Shown here piece after piece: positions 4,245-38,340 of a stretch of 39,474 nucleotides of DNA (the stretch's first letter is position 1; each line of letters starts with the position of its first letter). The translations under genes were made by a program, and so were the position numbers. Source of the stretch: a virus; the IMG/VR virus record IMGVR_UViG_3300033153_006183, positions 1 through 39,474 of that record; one strand, written 5' to 3'. The notes beneath the pieces were generated by a model. The model ran no database searches. It saw nothing but the letters and a program-made list of their open reading frames with translations, and was not told the origin of the DNA.

Positions 4245-4639
4245 TCGGCAAAGACAAAAACATGAATATTCATCCGCTAAAGAACCCCGACTCAAAAGGT
4301 CACTATGGGAACATGATAGAGGATATGGAAAAAACATCAAGTGTTGCATCCATGATGGGCTTTGTAGAAAACAATATCGAGAAATACCGAAGAAGATTGG
4401 GTAAAAAGTCACACCTCAGCGGGGTTGTGAAAGATATACTCGACCTCCATTTTATAGATCATCCTGGAGAGTTTGAACAATTTAAAGAAATTCATCTTGA
4501 AGAAGTTAGGCAAAGTGATCTAAAAAAGATAGAAACATACAAGGCATATGGAGATGTGCTGAAAGATTTGCTCCATAAGGGATACAAGGGTATGACTGTA
4601 TCGTATGCTTTGGAGTCGGAGGGGATCGAGTATGAATAA
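4241..4639 (+). CDS. Hypothetical protein, 132 aa
   Basis: Function unknown. The protein appears mostly helical. The N-terminal 45 residues are Met-rich, followed by a basic patch (EKYRRRLGKKSH) and an acidic middle. The C-terminus (YKGMTVSYALESEGIEYE) has a weak helix-turn-helix look, not strong enough to call. It starts on the ATGA overlap with the preceding gene and its end overlaps the next methyltransferase by 8 bases. Confidence 0.65.
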   Translation: MIGKDKNMNIHPLKNPDSKGHYGNMIEDMEKTSSVASMMGFVENNIEKYRRRLGKKSHLSGVVKDILDLHFIDHPGEFEQFKEIHLEEVRQSDLKKIETYKAYGDVLKDLLHKGYKGMTVSYALESEGIEYE

Positions 4640-5300
4640 TCTTACAAGTGATTACATAGATAGCAAGATGAACACTATAATTCATGCAGATTGTCTTGAA
4701 GTTATGAAACAGACACCAGATGATTATTTTGATTTGGTTTTGACAGATCCGCCTTATGGGATTGATTTGGCTAATATGAATATGGGGATAGGCAATACAC
4801 CAAAAGCATCCAAGAAAGAAAATAGAAAATGGGAAAACAAAGATTGGGATAGTGATGTGCCAAGTGATGAAATATTTTCAGAAATATTTAGGGTAAGTAA
4901 AAATCAAATTATATGGGGCGGTAATTATTTTAATCTCCCTCCTCATAAGTTCTATATTTTATGGGATAAACAAATTCCAAACGGGTTAAGTTTCGCAGAC
5001 TGTGAAATGGCTTGGACCTCATACGATAAGGCACCTAGAATATTTAGGTATTCAGCGTATAGGGATAAGGCTGGAAAACTACACCCAACTCAAAAGCCAT
5101 TGATGTTGTTTGAGTACTGTATAGAAGAAGCACAAGCCAAAGGTGATGTGGTTAAAGTATTTGACCCGTTCATGGGTTCAGGCACCACAGCAATAGCTTG
5201 TAAGTCTTTAGGCTTAGATTGGTGCGGATGCGAACTAGAAGCTGATTATGTAGAGATAGCAAACAAAAGACTTGAAAAAGTGCAGGGTGCGTTATTCTAA
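4632..5300 (+). CDS. DNA methyltransferase, beta-class (second copy type)
   Basis: A second SAM-dependent DNA methyltransferase. The catalytic motif is DPPYG (residues 39-43) and the SAM motif DPFMGSGTT (about 178-186), again in beta-class order. DPPY favours N6-adenine but does not prove it. The start at 4632 has GGAGGGG about 7 bases upstream; a TTG at 4605 is less likely. The C-terminus (NKRLEKVQGALF) resembles that of the methyltransferase at 430-1269, but the middles differ, so target sites probably differ. Together they bracket the replication genes. A role in protection from restriction is likely. Confidence 0.9.
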   Translation: MNNLTSDYIDSKMNTIIHADCLEVMKQTPDDYFDLVLTDPPYGIDLANMNMGIGNTPKASKKENRKWENKDWDSDVPSDEIFSEIFRVSKNQIIWGGNYFNLPPHKFYILWDKQIPNGLSFADCEMAWTSYDKAPRIFRYSAYRDKAGKLHPTQKPLMLFEYCIEEAQAKGDVVKVFDPFMGSGTTAIACKSLGLDWCGCELEADYVEIANKRLEKVQGALF

Positions 5301-6037: not shown

Positions 6038-8671
6038 TTACATCGCACTTATAATAAATGCAAGCAACTCTTCATATCTAATTCCGTATCTGTTTCCGTC
6101 TTTCCACTCATCGTAACAAAATAACGCGTAATCTTCCGGAACAAGCCCGTGAGACTTAAAGATATCTCGCACTGTTTGCGCCCCTACCCCTGTATGTATT
6201 CTTGCATTATTTCCTTTTTCTTCAACTGCACTGATAAATCTAAATGTTTTGATCGCCGCTTTTAAATCTGCGGCTACAGCTTTTTCTATATCAGTCAAAT
6301 CTGTTAATGCTGTTTTTTCTCTTTCATCGGAAGTCTGTATCGTTCCGTTTGTTGCATAGATATTATCCCATCTGAAAGAAGCACTACCAACATCGTAGCT
6401 ATCATCAACCCAAGGGGTTATTGTTCCGTCCGTTCCGATACGAAGCTTCGGAGTAGGGTAATCGCTTCCGTTGTCTGATGTTGCTATATAAGCATATGAA
6501 CTTCTATCAGAGTCTATCGCATCAACTTTGTATGATCCAAACTCTACTATTGGTTTTGCTTCCGTGTCTGATGTTAGCTGAGCGGTGAACTGGACACAAT
6601 TACCTTCTCCCTCGGCTAAATCTTGATTGCCCTCTACCCATCCATAAGCGATAAGTGGTCTAGGGTCTACTGCTACCCCTGCAAAGGCTCTCGCTCTCCA
6701 TTGAACAGCACGGCTAAAAGAACTCCCTGCTGTTAGGTCTGCTGTATTGTTTTTAATTAGTGGGCAATTCGTATCGATAGAATACACATCAAAAACATCA
6801 AACGTATTATCATCGTCAACATCTGACAAATAAACAACACTTGTAAAAGTACAATCTGCGGCTTTTACTTTCTGAATCACCACATTGTTTGTTGTGTCTG
6901 TCATTCTTATACCGTAGTCTCCAGTTACGTTCTTAAAGTCTATATTAGATACTGCAACATTTCTGGCACCGCTTGTTATTGCCACAAGTCCATAATCATA
7001 CGTTGATGAAGAATCCGTAATAACAATTCCATCAACTACTACGTTAGTGTACGATCTAATCCTTACTGCGAAAGACTCTTCCACATCTCTATTATCTGTA
7101 TCAATATTGTGGATAAATATGTTTTTTATAATAAGCCCGTAAGCTGTTGTTGAGTACCCGCCACTAGCTACACCGTAAAAGCTTGTATTATAGCAGTCAA
7201 TAGAATAGTTACAATACTCTATGTGCATATTTTGAACTACAATGTGTTTAGGGGCTGCTGCTATATCGTGTCCCTTAACCTGTACTCCGCAAACACCGCC
7301 ATATGCCCTAGAGTTTTCCAAAGTAACATATCTTGATCCGTCGTCAATTTCATAACAGTTACTATTAGCTGGAACGGCATCCCCTGATGGGTTCTCACTA
7401 ACACACCCTGTGATTAAAAGATAGTCTGACTGGTGGGTAGTGAAGTTATCATCACCGCCTCCACTTGCATAACAACTTTCAATATTTACATACTCACACC
7501 TGCCAGCAGTAACGTAAGTTTCTGGATCGCCTGTATCGTAAGCATCTGCTGTAATATCAAAACAATGTTTCATCGCGTCTATCGCGGTTACATCTCTTAT
7601 TAGAATATTGTCGGAGTCATTCACAACTACACATGATCCATCGATAGTATTTGGGAAAGACTGCGGGTTCGTTGTTCTGCTTCCATTACCATCTACTTTA
7701 ATGTTTCTAACAGTAGTGTATGAAGCGTCTTTAACCACAACCCCTGAACATTGAGCGTCTGCACTGTCTATAATCTTAATGATCGTGTTTTCATCGTCTC
7801 CGTAAAACTCTCTATTGCTTGCTAAGACAATAGCCGTGTTTACAAAATAAGTACCTTCTGGGAGATAAACCTTTTTAAAATCATCAACAATGTTTTGGAT
7901 TTTTAAAGCGGTTGAGGTGATATCTGTGCCAGAAACACCAAACCATCTAACATTTACTGCACCGCTATACTGTCTAACCCAACCATCAAACACCGTTCCG
8001 CTATCGTTTTCTCCTGATCTTGAAGCATCATAAACAAAGACACCCTCGCCACCATCACTGTCTGCCGTATATCCTAGAACTCTGACGGTTTCTACTGTTA
8101 CATCAAGTGTTAACAGGTCTGCCACTGTATCAACTGTATACACTATCCCACTTGCTAATCCTGCATTTGCAAAAATACTATACTCTACAACCACTTCATC
8201 TGTTGAGATAAGAGCCACCGTAAAAGTTAATACATCTTCAAGCAAAGAGTATTCATCACTATATAGAAGTAGTCCGTTTTTGTGTACCATGATCTCTGTT
8301 ACCGGCACATACGACAATGTGGCTGTTACCCCTGTGACTCCTGTTATCTCTTCTTTTTGATAGAGTAGTGTTGTTGGAGACAGACACCCATTTCCTGTTG
8401 CCGGGGTAAAGTTGTTTATAGTCCATACTGTTGTACCGTTTTTGTCTTTAAGGGTTATATCAAACTCTCCATCTGTAAGGAACACATCTGCTTTACCTGA
8501 CGCGCTCAATACAATAGGGTATGTATTTGCTGTTCCCATTCCTGCGTCTGTATACGTATTTACCGCTGCACCGCTGCAACTGTCTGTAACATATAGCATA
8601 CCATACGGAACCACTACCCCATCATTGCCTATTCCTTGGAATTTACCATCATTGAATATCGCTGCACTCAT
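6038..8671 (-). CDS. Tailspike with beta-helix and self-cleaving S74 chaperone
   Basis: Receptor-binding tailspike, probably trimeric and likely to degrade a surface polysaccharide. Residues 1-90 form a head-binding type N-terminus (SAAIFNDGKFQGIG, then SGKADVFLTDGEFDITLKD). Residues about 190-650 form a pectate-lyase-like right-handed beta-helix with many short Val/Ile/Asn repeats. The C-terminus from about 781 is a peptidase S74 intramolecular chaperone: SDEREK supplies Ser781 and Lys786, the expected catalytic pair for autocleavage just before Ser781. The start overlaps the previous stop (ATGA). It is the last late gene. The glycosidase residues and the host sugar cannot be read from sequence. 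Confidence 0.9.
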   Translation of the reverse strand: MSAAIFNDGKFQGIGNDGVVVPYGMLYVTDSCSGAAVNTYTDAGMGTANTYPIVLSASGKADVFLTDGEFDITLKDKNGTTVWTINNFTPATGNGCLSPTTLLYQKEEITGVTGVTATLSYVPVTEIMVHKNGLLLYSDEYSLLEDVLTFTVALISTDEVVVEYSIFANAGLASGIVYTVDTVADLLTLDVTVETVRVLGYTADSDGGEGVFVYDASRSGENDSGTVFDGWVRQYSGAVNVRWFGVSGTDITSTALKIQNIVDDFKKVYLPEGTYFVNTAIVLASNREFYGDDENTIIKIIDSADAQCSGVVVKDASYTTVRNIKVDGNGSRTTNPQSFPNTIDGSCVVVNDSDNILIRDVTAIDAMKHCFDITADAYDTGDPETYVTAGRCEYVNIESCYASGGGDDNFTTHQSDYLLITGCVSENPSGDAVPANSNCYEIDDGSRYVTLENSRAYGGVCGVQVKGHDIAAAPKHIVVQNMHIEYCNYSIDCYNTSFYGVASGGYSTTAYGLIIKNIFIHNIDTDNRDVEESFAVRIRSYTNVVVDGIVITDSSSTYDYGLVAITSGARNVAVSNIDFKNVTGDYGIRMTDTTNNVVIQKVKAADCTFTSVVYLSDVDDDNTFDVFDVYSIDTNCPLIKNNTADLTAGSSFSRAVQWRARAFAGVAVDPRPLIAYGWVEGNQDLAEGEGNCVQFTAQLTSDTEAKPIVEFGSYKVDAIDSDRSSYAYIATSDNGSDYPTPKLRIGTDGTITPWVDDSYDVGSASFRWDNIYATNGTIQTSDEREKTALTDLTDIEKAVAADLKAAIKTFRFISAVEEKGNNARIHTGVGAQTVRDIFKSHGLVPEDYALFCYDEWKDGNRYGIRYEELLAFIISAM

Positions 8672-25983: not shown

Positions 25984-26784
25984 TTACCATCCGCCATCAT
26001 TGGCGGTTTCTTCTATTCTCATTTTTGAGTAATCATCAAACGACCCTGCATCGCCTAAAGTTTTCTGACCAACTCCACCTGCTCCACCCGTAGGTACAAT
26101 AGGCTCTGTGGCATTTGTTGTTCTTTTTGTTGTCTCAATCGTAGGTTTTTTGCCTGTTTTCAACTTTTCACTAAGCTTTACAATCTCGATTACTTGTTTT
26201 GTAGGTGACAGGTTAGATATACGAATAGACTCTTTTACATCTTTTCCAAGTGAATACGCGACTTCACCGCTGTTGTCTATATCGTTCATCGCCAACACCA
26301 TATCACGGGTAATGGACGCTCCACCCTCATTAGGGGCTTTCTTAACTACTTCATCAAAATCTTGATATACATCTCTTGCATCGTCAAACTTTGTTTCGAT
26401 CTCGTCTAGCACCGTATTAAAATCATGGTCTATCGGAGTGACTGCTTCTTTGTTTTCATCAAAGGTTTTTGCATCTTCCTTGTATGTCTTCTCAGCTTCT
26501 TTAAAATCATCGTAGTCATCAAAATTATCTATGTCTGGGGCTTCCGGCTCTTGTGGTTGCAACCGTGCCTTTAGCTCCTCTACTTCTTTTGACAATTCTC
26601 GTTTGTCTGCTGATAATGACTCTATACGTTTTTGCGCTCTACCTTTTCTAGGCTGTTCTTTCGTTCCCTCTTCTTTGACTTCGGTCTTAACTTCTTCCTT
26701 TGGGGTTTCTGTTTTAACCTCTATCTCTGTCGTGGTCGGTGTGCCTGCTGTCTCTATCGTAAAGTTTGACTCTTTTGTTTCCAT
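25984..26784 (-). CDS. Scaffolding protein
   Basis: An assembly chaperone of the procapsid. It has a highly charged, disordered N-terminus (Thr/Glu/Lys repeats, 1-45), a helical middle (46-120), an acidic segment and a Gly-rich stretch near the C-terminus. Its place directly upstream of the coat gene is that of P22 gp8. At 266 residues it is near the 303 of P22. Sequence similarity among scaffolds is low, so the call relies on synteny and composition. A putative extended -10 promoter lies 54 bases upstream. Confidence 0.8.
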   Translation of the reverse strand: METKESNFTIETAGTPTTTEIEVKTETPKEEVKTEVKEEGTKEQPRKGRAQKRIESLSADKRELSKEVEELKARLQPQEPEAPDIDNFDDYDDFKEAEKTYKEDAKTFDENKEAVTPIDHDFNTVLDEIETKFDDARDVYQDFDEVVKKAPNEGGASITRDMVLAMNDIDNSGEVAYSLGKDVKESIRISNLSPTKQVIEIVKLSEKLKTGKKPTIETTKRTTNATEPIVPTGGAGGVGQKTLGDAGSFDDYSKMRIEETANDGGW

Positions 26785-26837: not shown

Positions 26838-26846
26838 ATTGTATCA
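26838..26846 (-). promoter_or_regulatory. Putative extended -10 promoter for scaffold and coat
   Basis: On the minus strand the box reads TGATACAAT, the same nonamer type found at the early divergent promoters. No convincing -35 is present. Transcription would start near 26831, about 47 bases before the scaffold ATG. It would let the head genes be expressed independently of terminase and portal, which lie beyond the plus-strand island. Confidence 0.5.
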
Positions 26847-26929
26847 TAAATCCGATTGATGAACTTAATCAGTTTTTTTTATTTCCTTTTTTGCTTAGGT
26901 TCTTGTATAATTAAAGAAAAGGATTTAAA

Positions 26930-27451
26930 GTGTTATGCAACAAAGCAAAACAATGCAATGTCTGCGATGGGTGGTTTAAAATGGAAAGAGGATGCACTCT
27001 CGAAAAGCGTTGTCCTTCATGTCGTGAACTCGGACTATCAAAAAGTATACGAACAAGAAAAGATGACTACCCCTGTATTTTTAGTGCTACACTACATAGC
27101 CTTGTTACACCTTCTAAATACTCATTAATTTTAACTTCTCCCCACAATGATGTGCTGAGAGAATATTTTATATTTGAGTATATACCACAACATTGTGACA
27201 ATGCTTCAAATATGGATGAAGAGTTTATGGAGACAATAGAAGAGGTGTTATCTCACCTTAATAAGAGAGAGAGGATGGTAATTAGTATGAGGTTCGGGCT
27301 TAATGAAGGAGAAGGAGACACTTTGGAATATATTGCTAGTGCTTTATCTATCACAAAAGAAAGAGTTAGGCAAATTGAGTCGAGCGGCATTAAGAAATTA
27401 AAGCACCCTAAGGTAAGCAGGCTTTTAAAACAATACATAGAAGGGAAATAA
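26930..27451 (+). CDS. Sigma-70 region-4-like zinc protein
   Basis: A transcription regulator candidate. Residues about 92-173 match region 4 of RpoD-type sigma factors: EEVLSHLNKRERMVISMRFGL, then TLEYIASALSITKERVRQIES, then IKKLKHP. It therefore has the helix-turn-helix that recognises -35 elements or contacts core polymerase. No region 2 is present, so it cannot melt a -10 alone. The N-terminus has a Cys pair set (C9, C12, C28, C31), a likely zinc ribbon. GTG start with AAAGGA 6 bases upstream; a weak TATAAT at 26906-26911 could drive it. It lies antisense to the surrounding late genes. Confidence 0.85.
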   Translation: MLCNKAKQCNVCDGWFKMERGCTLEKRCPSCRELGLSKSIRTRKDDYPCIFSATLHSLVTPSKYSLILTSPHNDVLREYFIFEYIPQHCDNASNMDEEFMETIEEVLSHLNKRERMVISMRFGLNEGEGDTLEYIASALSITKERVRQIESSGIKKLKHPKVSRLLKQYIEGK

Positions 27452-27870
27452 TGCAAAAATTAATCGCACTAATAAAACTACATTGTGAAGCAGGAACGAT
27501 TTTGGAGCATATGGATTTATTTGATGAGGCTGAATTCTTAATAGGGTTTGAAGAATATTCTAGGGAGTCCAGAGAAAGACTCCTTGTTGCTATGACTGAA
27601 ACAAAAGGTGATAGTTGCAATAATGTAACCAAAAGAATTAAACTGATACCTAGGGCTACACTTCCGTCCGATGAGGAATTAGAGAAAATTTGGGCTGAGG
27701 GCAAAGAGTACAAAACCATATTGCAGCTTGCTGATGCAATAATAAAAGACATTGACCTTATCCAAAAAAAGAGGGGACCGATTATCCTAATGGAAGAAGT
27801 TTGTATCTTTGGAAATGCCACATTGATTAAAAATATTATTCAAGATGGACTTATAGGTGATGAGAGCTAG
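27451..27870 (+). CDS. Partner of the sigma-like gene, 139 aa, unknown
   Basis: No family recognised. Mostly helical, with an acidic first half and a C-terminus containing PIILMEEVCIFGNATLIKN. Its start shares one base with the stop of the sigma-like gene (TAATG), so both are almost certainly co-translated. The 3' end overlaps the portal stop by 4 bases in convergent orientation with no terminator, so transcripts of the two strands would collide or form antisense pairs. Confidence 0.65.
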   Translation: MQKLIALIKLHCEAGTILEHMDLFDEAEFLIGFEEYSRESRERLLVAMTETKGDSCNNVTKRIKLIPRATLPSDEELEKIWAEGKEYKTILQLADAIIKDIDLIQKKRGPIILMEEVCIFGNATLIKNIIQDGLIGDES

Positions 27871-29927
27871 GCTTTCGCCCCTCTCATCTTCCCCACAACA
27901 TCCTTGACAACATCATCTTTCCTTTTGGCTTCATCATCATTCTTCTTGTTCACCATATCATCAACCTTAATACCCGCCTCTACCCTCTTAGTCTCTAGGT
28001 TGATATTCGCTACTTCTAGCTTAATGCCTTCTATCTCAATCTTTGCCTTATACTCCATATCTTTAAGCTGTAGTTGTAGTTCGCCCTCTTTGGCTTGTGC
28101 TTCGGCTTCTATCTGTTGCGGTGATGGTTGCTGAGGTGGTGCATCCTTCTGTATCTCTTCTTGGTCTTCTTTACTTAGTAGATTAAGCGGTAATCCTTTT
28201 TTCAATCTCTCTGCTATTGCATCAGAATTATTGAAGTCCATATTATCCGCTATGAGATCCCCCGCCACTTCTGCGACTTGTGGGATTGCTTGTGCAAAGT
28301 TTAGAATACTGTCTGCTGTTTCCATACGCTTAGTTGCGTAACTCGCTCCAGTGGTAATTACAACATCATATTTACCCATTGCTAAGTCATTGATAACTAC
28401 TTCTTCGCCTGACTCTTCATCCATGACAACTTTATTGATTTCCACAAAGTCACCGCTTCCGTCTGGAGATTTAATTCTTAGTATTCTTTCAGTATCGTAC
28501 GTTTTAGGGATTAGCTCTACACAAAGTATTCCTACTCTTCGCATGGCATTGGATAAGCTGTCTACAAAGTCGAATGTACCCGTATCTGCTTCACTTTGTC
28601 GTGCCATGATAGCGCGTCCACTTGTTTCGTTCCCTGCCTTACCTATTGAAGCATCATAAATACCTATCGTTGATTGTATAGATTGCTGCATATTTTGTGC
28701 CATATTTATTTCTGCAATAGGCATAAGTGGTGCTGCTTCTCTTTTTGGTGCTGCAAATCCTTTATTATATGGCAATACGCTGTAGTTTTTAGTGTTGGCT
28801 GTTTTCCAAATAGTTTCATACCCCTCAATCGCTCCTGCTTCTGCAATGTATGGAGCCTTGGGCGCTAAGGATATTCTTTCTGTCGCTGCACTCTGCCAAT
28901 AGTTCAGCATTACTTGTGGATCTTTCGCGTGTGTGATGGCTCCCTGATAGCTTCTTTTGCCGTTTACGATAACTTCTCTACCCAATACCGGAACGATAGG
29001 GATTGTGCTCGTTGGGAATTCTCTCTCTTTTTCAAGTATTGCATTGGCTGTTATCTTACACCAAATGACTTTATAAGTATTTACTTTTCTCTCTCTCGTA
29101 ATCGTTACGCCCATTTCTTCGAGTTCATCAATTACATCTTTCATATCATCTTTATAAACAGTTTCACCGCTACTTAATAGACAGAGAGTCCTCGTAACAG
29201 GTTCGCGTCTAAAGTATTCTGATACTGTGATCGTTCTATTGTCACCCCAAAATGCCCTATTCTCTGTGGTATCTAGGTTTCCGATTGCTTTCCCAGGGTA
29301 TCTTACTTTAAACTCACCATGGCTGATCTGTTCATGGATGAACCCATACCCTGCATCTGAGTAATCACTCTCTTTAGAATGAGGATCAATAAGTACAGAT
29401 AACCTGTCTCTGATAGCTTCTATTTTAATATCTTGCTCAAAGGAGTCATTCCTAGAGTAATCAGTAAGGACTCTTAACCATCCTACCCCTGACAGGCAAT
29501 GTCTAAATGCTGTTTTGTATTGTGCGGGTGCATTAGAGATGGATTGAATGTTTCTAATTACTCCCTCTAGGACACTTGAAAGGTTCTCATCATTCCCCCC
29601 TACTGTTTTAATAGTAGGCTCTTTTTGAGAGTTAGACTCTACAGGGGATATTTTAATCTCTTGGACCTGCTTCTTTTGTGCGCCTGCAATTCGTGAGATG
29701 TATTGTTGGAGTTGGTTTATCACTAAGGTTGGTCTACCCTCATCATCTCTCTCATTGAGAGTTTCTTGATCCCATTGGCTACCTGCGATAAAGTTCTCAT
29801 CATCTCTAGAGGTTGCAAAAGTTTCTCTCCATCCGAATTGTGCGACAGCTACTCTTTCCCGCGCTTCTCTTAGGATGTCTGCCTCTGTGTTGCCTTCTCT
29901 TGTCTGTATCGGTTTATTTGTTATCAT
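27867..29927 (-). CDS. Portal protein, P22 gp1-like
   Basis: The dodecameric ring through which DNA enters and leaves the head. The N-terminus (REARERVAVAQFGWRETFATSRDDENFIAGSQWD) and the following RPTLVINQLQQYISRIAGAQKK are typical of P22-type portals. Length 686 is close to the 725 of P22. The C-terminal 100 residues are a Gln/Glu/Lys-rich coiled coil, the barrel region of this family. It follows the large terminase after 9 bases. Confidence 0.93.
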   Translation of the reverse strand: MITNKPIQTREGNTEADILREARERVAVAQFGWRETFATSRDDENFIAGSQWDQETLNERDDEGRPTLVINQLQQYISRIAGAQKKQVQEIKISPVESNSQKEPTIKTVGGNDENLSSVLEGVIRNIQSISNAPAQYKTAFRHCLSGVGWLRVLTDYSRNDSFEQDIKIEAIRDRLSVLIDPHSKESDYSDAGYGFIHEQISHGEFKVRYPGKAIGNLDTTENRAFWGDNRTITVSEYFRREPVTRTLCLLSSGETVYKDDMKDVIDELEEMGVTITRERKVNTYKVIWCKITANAILEKEREFPTSTIPIVPVLGREVIVNGKRSYQGAITHAKDPQVMLNYWQSAATERISLAPKAPYIAEAGAIEGYETIWKTANTKNYSVLPYNKGFAAPKREAAPLMPIAEINMAQNMQQSIQSTIGIYDASIGKAGNETSGRAIMARQSEADTGTFDFVDSLSNAMRRVGILCVELIPKTYDTERILRIKSPDGSGDFVEINKVVMDEESGEEVVINDLAMGKYDVVITTGASYATKRMETADSILNFAQAIPQVAEVAGDLIADNMDFNNSDAIAERLKKGLPLNLLSKEDQEEIQKDAPPQQPSPQQIEAEAQAKEGELQLQLKDMEYKAKIEIEGIKLEVANINLETKRVEAGIKVDDMVNKKNDDEAKRKDDVVKDVVGKMRGAKA

Positions 29928-31779: not shown

Positions 31780-31955
31780 CCTTTATGTTTTTTCCCACAC
31801 TCTAAACACCAATTCGTCCATCCCGCGTTAAATTGACTTGCTTGTATCTTATGCTCTCTGTCACAACCTGAACACAGTACCAAAAACACCCTCCTCTTTA
31901 CTTTGGATTTTGAGGTAGCGTAGTGCATCCCTAGGTCTTTGAGTTTAGTTAACAT
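31770..31955 (-). CDS. Small zinc-ribbon-like protein, 61 aa
   Basis: Basic protein with CSGC (28-31) and CLEC (50-53), a likely zinc ribbon of about 25 residues, and a His/Lys-rich end. No name is known. It overlaps the next gene upstream by 7 bases. Such small ribbons in early phage clusters usually bind nucleic acids or RNA polymerase, which is inference here. Confidence 0.65.
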   Translation of the reverse strand: MLTKLKDLGMHYATSKSKVKRRVFLVLCSGCDREHKIQASQFNAGWTNWCLECGKKHKGKN

Positions 31956-32290
31956 CTTTCAAACTTATTGCATCCAAAGTCTTTAGTTACTATTCTACCC
32001 TCGAATGAACCAACTTCTACACCACACCACAACCTATTGTCATTTACTAACCCACAGTGTTCACAATTTCCACATACACGACTCTCTAAATCATCAAGTG
32101 ATGATGAATCCTTTACTAATAATTCTTTAAGTTCTTTATAGAAGGCAGGGACATATTCATACTCGGCTAGCAACTCTTTGAATGTTCTGCAAGAGCCCCA
32201 CTCTCCGTCTATTTTTACTTCCACTTGCTCTACATACTCTAAGATTGCTTGGATTGTTTTATTGTCTACTTCTATTTTCTTTGTTTTCAT
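31949..32290 (-). CDS. Cys-rich C-terminal domain protein, 113 aa
   Basis: The last 45 residues (ESRVCGNCEHC ... WCGVEVG ... VTKDFGCNKFE) share the pattern ESR-C-NC, C..E or DV, VxKxFGCNxFE with the protein at 38776-39063. This indicates a shared small zinc-binding module. The N-terminal 65 residues are acidic and helical. Function unknown. It overlaps the zinc-ribbon gene downstream. Confidence 0.65.
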   Translation of the reverse strand: MKTKKIEVDNKTIQAILEYVEQVEVKIDGEWGSCRTFKELLAEYEYVPAFYKELKELLVKDSSSLDDLESRVCGNCEHCGLVNDNRLWCGVEVGSFEGRIVTKDFGCNKFERC

Positions 32291-38250: not shown

Positions 38251-38340
38251 ATGAGCATCACAATCCAACCTAAAGAAACAATGATAACTGGATCAATAAG
38301 CCAAACACTTAATCTAACAAAAGTAAATAAAGGAAAATAG
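38251..38340 (+). CDS. Small ORF, 29 aa, carrying the 37-bp repeat
   Basis: A 29-residue ORF that begins one base after the preceding stop and ends directly ahead of the next ATG (38342). Its C-terminal half (SQTLNLTKVNKGK) is encoded by the 37-bp repeat, which also provides the ribosome-binding site for the next gene. No family recognised; it could simply be a leader peptide. Confidence 0.35.
   Translation: MSITIQPKETMITGSISQTLNLTKVNKGK
38298..38334 (+). repeat. 37-bp direct repeat, copy 2
   Basis: Exact match to 77-113. Here it encodes the end of a 29-residue ORF and the ribosome-binding site of the gene at 38342. On a circular map the two copies are about 1.25 kb apart in the same orientation, each directly before a gene start. 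Confidence 0.9.

Follow-up and report, generated by a model that had tools for sequence, protein, structure and literature searches.

An antisense cassette with a conserved core gene, exchangeable cargo and an operator at fixed spacing to divergent promoters recurs among phage head and packaging genes

The window analysed here is the whole 39,474-base IMG/VR virus record IMGVR_UViG_3300033153_006183. Within its head-gene block, two genes lie on the strand opposite to their neighbours: in a greedy ORF map of positions 6038 to 37164, orf1 and orf2 are the sole plus-strand ORFs kept, the rest being on the minus strand. The features of this island and its flanks are listed in window coordinates.

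25984-26784, minus strand: scaffold gene, the divergent neighbour of the island (PHROG 8865, E=2e-32)
26838-26846, minus strand: extended -10 (TGATACAAT) of the scaffold/coat promoter, divergent from the island, read from the sequence
26855-26873: operator ATTGATGAACTTAATCAGT, an imperfect palindrome with two mismatches to ATTGATTAACTTAATCAAT
26906-26911, plus strand: -10 hexamer TATAAT of the island promoter, exactly 32 bp past the operator
26930-27451, plus strand: orf1, 173 aa, GTG start with an AGGA ribosome site at 26920-26923; the exchangeable cargo in this copy
27245-27406, plus strand: sigma-70 region 4 domain within orf1 (residues 106-159, Pfam)
27451-27870, plus strand: orf2, 139 aa, its ATG sharing one base with the orf1 stop codon (TAATG); residues 1-28 are the island-family core
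27859-27888: hairpin with an 8-bp stem, spanning the stops at which orf2 and portal converge, MFE -17.6, z=-2.9
27867-29927, minus strand: portal gene, the convergent neighbour of the island (PHROG 156, E=2e-140)

The ORF map and the two flanking PHROG families confirm an antisense two-gene unit between portal and scaffold, as the original prediction had it. The genes overlap by one base. The transcript had also been proposed to be antisense to the portal 3' end; the coding overlap is only 4 bp (27867-27870) and coincides with the hairpin, although an antisense RNA could still be made. The hairpin, which has no T run 3' of its stem on either strand, is a possible shared 3' end of orf2 and portal. 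Elsewhere in the window, two 40-base copies with 98% identity (77-116 and 38298-38337) lie one close to each end of the record, and two DNA methyltransferase genes (430-1269 and 4605-5300) both belong to PHROG 67. A 113-aa cysteine-containing protein is encoded at 31949-32290, with relatives in six of seven island phages and in none of three island-free phages.

The orf1 protein consists of two parts, a four-cysteine N-terminal ribbon and an RpoD-type region 4. Residues 106-159 match Pfam Sigma70_r4 (E=1e-15), the best PHROG match is PHROG 351, RNA polymerase sigma factor (E=1.6e-17), and the 60 matches listed in the PDB comparison are sigma factors that align to the C-terminal part of orf1. 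Regions 1-3 are missing, and region 2 of sigma-70 is not found by Pfam, PHROG or PDB comparison. With region 4 alone, orf1 is not a sigma-70 factor, which would combine regions 2 and 4; this composition had been read correctly at the outset. The cysteines C9, C12, C28 and C31 form the predicted ribbon (CX2C-X15-CX2C), which would bind zinc. Region 4 shares 59-66% identity, after realignment of initial matches at 62-65%, with RpoD-like proteins in six of the seven genomes sampled from the phylum of L134, an Epsilonproteobacteria-labelled MAG; the seventh, L134's own MAG, gives no RpoD-like match to orf1. The VRQIESS-IKKLKHPK stretch of the phylum's RpoD is retained. Compared with host RpoD of Campylobacterota, orf1 keeps region 4 nearly intact but is without regions 1-3 and has 173 aa in all.

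A full-length relative of 175 aa with the same two-part layout is encoded at L002 (35-36% identity over nearly the whole length, all four cysteines kept), so orf1 is not a chance ORF. The L002 gene has its neighbours on the same strand, and an island-type operator is not found there; orf1 can thus exist outside the cassette. L002 is the sole match to the N-terminal profile A3 across viral_contigs, and the 397 genomes of the phylum give only six weak matches to it (E 0.004-0.009), every one with stops. The structure model of orf1 is poor (pLDDT 45.8). Assignment to the MzaA defence family was rejected, the match covering only the sigma-like part. Close to host RpoD in its region 4, orf1 probably docks on RNA polymerase or on -35 DNA, altering transcription during infection; this apparently host-derived sigma-4 cargo would thus act on RNA polymerase. 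Two sigma-4-only genes occur in other settings: a 96-aa gene in another phage (L003, 7875-8165), on the strand opposite to terminase, and a 53-aa ORF in a genome of the phylum (L173), downstream of a gene with a GGGVGSGAT motif that we take to be tubulin-like. The L173 stretch (647-1644) is possibly a phage or plasmid remnant.

The orf2 protein had been described as an unknown 139-residue product. Below E=0.01 it matches nothing in Pfam or PHROG, yet it is not isolated: residues 1-28 are conserved across a family of islands, and the remainder is private (alignments A4, A5). The structure model is confident in the first 30 residues only, where it shows a helical hairpin (block means of pLDDT >90), and its fold search returns no BFVD match at E<=0.001 and no PDB match at E<=10. 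The shortest core proteins have about 35 residues. Among the 21 cores compared (19 distinct sequences), differences at codon positions 1, 2 and 3 number 1028, 533 and 1851; the excess at the third position indicates that the core is conserved as a protein. In 50,697 phage records, neither the core search nor the orf2 search gives a match. In the 397 genomes of the phylum, the core is convincing only in L134's genome, with two further weak matches.

In total, 22 islands carry this core: the window, 20 viral contigs found by the core profile, and the L134 MAG. The first orf2 scan yielded a single relative, L004. Here, too, a terminase and a portal gene are on the strand opposite to the core, and the DNA upstream of the core contains the perfect palindrome ATTGATTAACTTAATCAAT, followed by a -10 element. 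The third island, L096, was brought in by the palindrome DNA pattern alone; over viral_contigs this pattern hits at least 119 stretches and is too unspecific by itself, and L096 is the only new island among the fetched loci when these are searched with island proteins. The first core profiles gave eight loci, followed by the MAG contig and then the 20 viral contigs, which include the near-copy pairs L129/L130, L132/L133 and L166/L136. A combined promoter and operator pattern matches nine stretches across viral_contigs; all nine are islands and are also in the core-profile set, and the contigs of L136, L138 and L140 were first met in this way. What looked like a private antisense gene pair belongs to a module that is shared between phages and whose control elements are precisely arranged. 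The core profile together with an operator at fixed distance provides a search key for accessory genes in phages of a phylum for which few phages have been characterised.

All 22 islands lie on the strand opposite to the adjoining identifiable head or packaging gene (ORF maps; one flank only is readable in L134, L136 and L166). They are located between packaging/portal and scaffold/coat genes, or adjoin terminase. Their flanks span at least six portal/coat families, as follows; 'P22-type' and 'T7-type' are labels of this analysis.

P22-type portal, PHROG 156: window, L129, L152
T7-type head-tail adaptor, PHROG 332: L132
Portal PHROG 21 with terminase PHROG 15: L004
Portal PHROG 1216 with terminase: L153
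Portal PHROG 145: L165
Head-protease fusion, PHROG 4523: L134
Scaffolds near islands: PHROG 8865, 648 and 206

The portal-like protein of L159 and the scaffold-like protein of L132 match no PHROG family.

Empty sites are present in related phages. A coat-protein scan of the T7-type group gives 79 loci, of which 71 were measured for the gap between scaffold and coat (eight with less than 700 bp before the coat gene were left out). Eight of these gaps contain a core island, always on the opposite strand; most others measure about 115-410 bp without a core island, and about 12 hold other inserts. No antisense gene is found between portal and scaffold in BA3, VvAW1 and DSL-LC05, or in the head block of Sulfurimonas phage SNW-1. 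The insert, present in some phages and missing at the same place in related ones, behaves as a moron.

The promoter predicted at 26838 exists, but a promoter of the same type precedes the coat gene in island-free relatives: many empty loci, too, have an extended -10 some 155-165 bp upstream of the coat gene. The -35 match of this promoter averages 3.5/6 in empty loci versus 2.4/6 in islands, a comparison of 7 island, 25 empty and 14 other loci hand-picked from the 79, for which p=0.006 is a guide only, the loci being related. On the simplest reading, the cassette was inserted immediately upstream of a coat promoter that was already there, and the place of the -35 box is now taken by the cassette's operator. 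That promoters here often lack a -35 box, a point of the original prediction, is unremarkable if the host belongs to Campylobacterota, since the available text of PMC3847290 describes the -35 box as usually missing from C. jejuni promoters.

Other inserts occupy the same gap. In L194, L196, L197 and L201 a different antisense insert encodes an ORF of 47-75 residues that appears ribbon-helix-helix-like by eye; a ribbon-helix-helix repressor was rejected, Pfam giving no support. Further unrelated antisense genes occur in L192, L195, L198, L203, L210, L239 and L245, so the scaffold-coat gap seems to be a general insertion hotspot. The L245 insert has a weak IS110-type transposase match.

Upstream of the islands, the operator family follows the consensus ATTGAT-N7-ATCAAT. 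The window holds one strong site only (26855-26873), centred at about -54 of the island promoter and about -33 of the scaffold promoter, both values calculated from the hexamers as predicted positions. On the island side, 19 of the 22 islands have exactly 32 bp between the operator arms and the -10 hexamer (16 chosen automatically and three, L140, L166 and L136, by reading). The L159 start was placed via its operator, and the spacing is independently seen in the hexamer control (L264). L129, L130 and L162 retain the core without an operator at this fixed place; core and operator are therefore not strictly tied. On the structural side, exactly 8 bp separate the end of the operator from the extended -10 that serves the adjacent structural gene in 11 of the 14 operator-bearing islands, window included. 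This distance is 13 bp in L152, and an extended -10 is not seen in L134 or L159. The 8-bp placement puts the operator where a -35 box would stand.

The geometry is specific to islands. Among 977 TATAAT hexamers of the window and loci L175-L270, arms matching at least 9/12 at the offset precede 12, of which 11 are islands; at 10/12 or better, all ten are island promoters, some islands being represented by two loci in this control. An operator with at most three mismatches occurs in 14 of 22 islands, against a mean of 0.02 in shuffled sequences. In the 397 genomes of the phylum, a site with at most one mismatch is present in only eight. Given this rarity in hosts, the operator is island-bound and has no host regulon, and a phage factor is its likelier partner. 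The proposed transcription switch thus stands in part: divergent promoters flank one operator at fixed spacing, but across the family such a switch is not attributable to the sigma-4 protein.

The stretch from the promoter to the core, termed cargo, differs between islands, and in L140 the core stands alone. Cargo is shared by otherwise unrelated phages, and some cargo proteins are shared between islands. L129 and L164 have 76% identity over 291 bp of island DNA, whereas those of their head proteins that were compared do not match at E 0.01; L166 and L131 have 90% identity over 197 bp. By their ORF maps, the other 21 islands lack the sigma-4 protein, and none of ten other cargo proteins matches Sigma70_r4 in Pfam. 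Since the window's island is the only one of 22 to encode it, orf1 is exchangeable cargo and not a common switch, and the sigma-4 protein cannot be the purpose of the island. In L096 and L128, short partial copies of the core start lie upstream of the core, which suggests a recombination seam for cargo exchange. At the convergent end, a junction hairpin with z<=-2 is found in 10 of 21 islands and is weak or absent in about half; a convincing T run is not seen.

Seven island phages are near-complete (six records and the window). SSB and the core are the only proteins common to all seven, the core being scored by profile, with BLAST clustering joining five. No other shared regulator qualifies as a family-wide factor; the 113-aa cysteine-containing family reaches six of the seven. 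On this distribution, the core protein is the strongest candidate for the operator-binding factor. It would then be a small phage protein acting at a head-gene promoter and, to our knowledge, would rank among the smallest phage DNA-binding regulators.

The islands are best explained, with good though incomplete confidence, as antisense cassettes of the moron type that contain their own divergent switch. They occur in phages probably infecting Campylobacterota, and their core likely binds the operator. Three observations support the host assignment: the label of the MAG, the similarity between orf1 and the phylum's RpoD, and shared SSB genes. From its convergent end, the cassette comprises a hairpin (in about half of the copies), exchangeable cargo, the core gene and divergent promoters around the operator. 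The operator would be bound by a factor that the phage encodes, the core protein being the likeliest; this factor may act on the cassette promoter from a site centred at -54, and may also act on the head-gene promoter from a site centred at -33 that replaces the -35 box. Operator occupancy would couple the two promoters. We infer the binder, and likewise the direction of regulation and the action of orf1. A bolder version, which we regard as tentative, is that the cassette moves from phage to phage and captures the head promoter by placing its operator at the former -35, the tiny core autoregulating and gating scaffold/coat synthesis. If so, a selfish or regulatory module passes among unrelated phages and ties the recipient's capsid production to itself, with cargo such as the sigma-4 protein carried along.

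A different role for the window's island, which we consider unlikely, makes orf1 the late-transcription switch, its region 4 replacing or displacing host sigma region 4 on the flap and steering polymerase to the head promoters. It would then work in the manner of T4 gp33 or of regulators of the ArpU/RinA type. The clear region 4 with its PHROG 351 match and the operator at the -35 place of the adjoining scaffold promoter fit this idea, and T4 gp33 is described in the available text of PMC2988020 as binding the tip of the flap, the attachment site of sigma domain 4. Against it, 21 islands with the same core do without a sigma-4 protein, ten cargo proteins lack Sigma70_r4, and related phages without the insert retain the coat promoter. 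In the window phage orf1 is a possible polymerase-steering switch, but it does not explain the family.

Similarly improbable is an ordinary moron insertion whose operator and spacing were merely inherited with the cassette and form no special circuit. The cassettes are clearly related to each other, and morons with varied genes are known in the P22-type late operon (PMC2629481, available text). Against this, spacer and cargo have lost most of their likeness beyond the operator and hexamer, yet the spacer keeps its 32 bp in 19 of 22 islands and the distance on the structural side its 8 bp in 11 of 14; this constancy points to selection on the geometry. An antisense RNA unit that tunes portal/coat expression, with proteins of little weight, would suit an island that always opposes the head genes and ends at a convergent stop, but is very unlikely, given a core conserved as protein with its third-position excess, some cargo proteins that islands have in common at the protein level, and junction hairpins that would curb read-through.

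The moron-type cassette with a divergent switch can be set against three described systems. The P2 Ogr and P4 delta activators, whose site lies near -55, resemble it in combining a zinc-type activator with a dyad site at late promoters. In the accessible part of PMC3931495, these zinc-binding activators have a CX2CX22CX4C motif and a late-promoter dyad TGT-N12-ACA. By contrast, orf1 has CX2C-X15-CX2C and falls outside that family, the dyad differs, and the other islands with this operator do not carry orf1. Coactivators of the gp33 type are defined by binding to the RNAP beta flap and by a sliding-clamp epitope at the C-terminus. In mode of action, orf1 would be closest to T4 gp33, a phage protein that corresponds to sigma domain 4 without domain 2 and, as the available text of PMC2988020 states, has no discernible sequence similarity to sigma proteins. 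Unlike gp33, orf1 has a region 4 that is 59-66% identical to that of RpoD-like proteins, and it adds a four-cysteine head.

An earlier description of the cassette was not found in the literature covered, PMC11290706 included in its accessible part, most subscription papers lying outside the search. By analogy, the nearest described system is the 'ant moron' or immunity I region of P22-type phages, where the available text of PMC2629481 reports variable, independently expressed genes in the virion-assembly operon, which have regulators of their own and affect the transcription that reaches the next virion gene. Neither orf1 nor orf2 matches an mnt, arc or ant family in Pfam or PHROG, which separates them from P22 immunity I. 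Compared with the P22 ant moron, the cassette is antisense throughout and sits between packaging/portal and scaffold/coat genes; it occurs with at least six portal/coat types and has one core, one operator and fixed spacing to two divergent promoters. In conclusion, the cassette occupies the same type of position in phages with unrelated capsids and offers a case of a small phage protein and an operator sited at a head-gene promoter.
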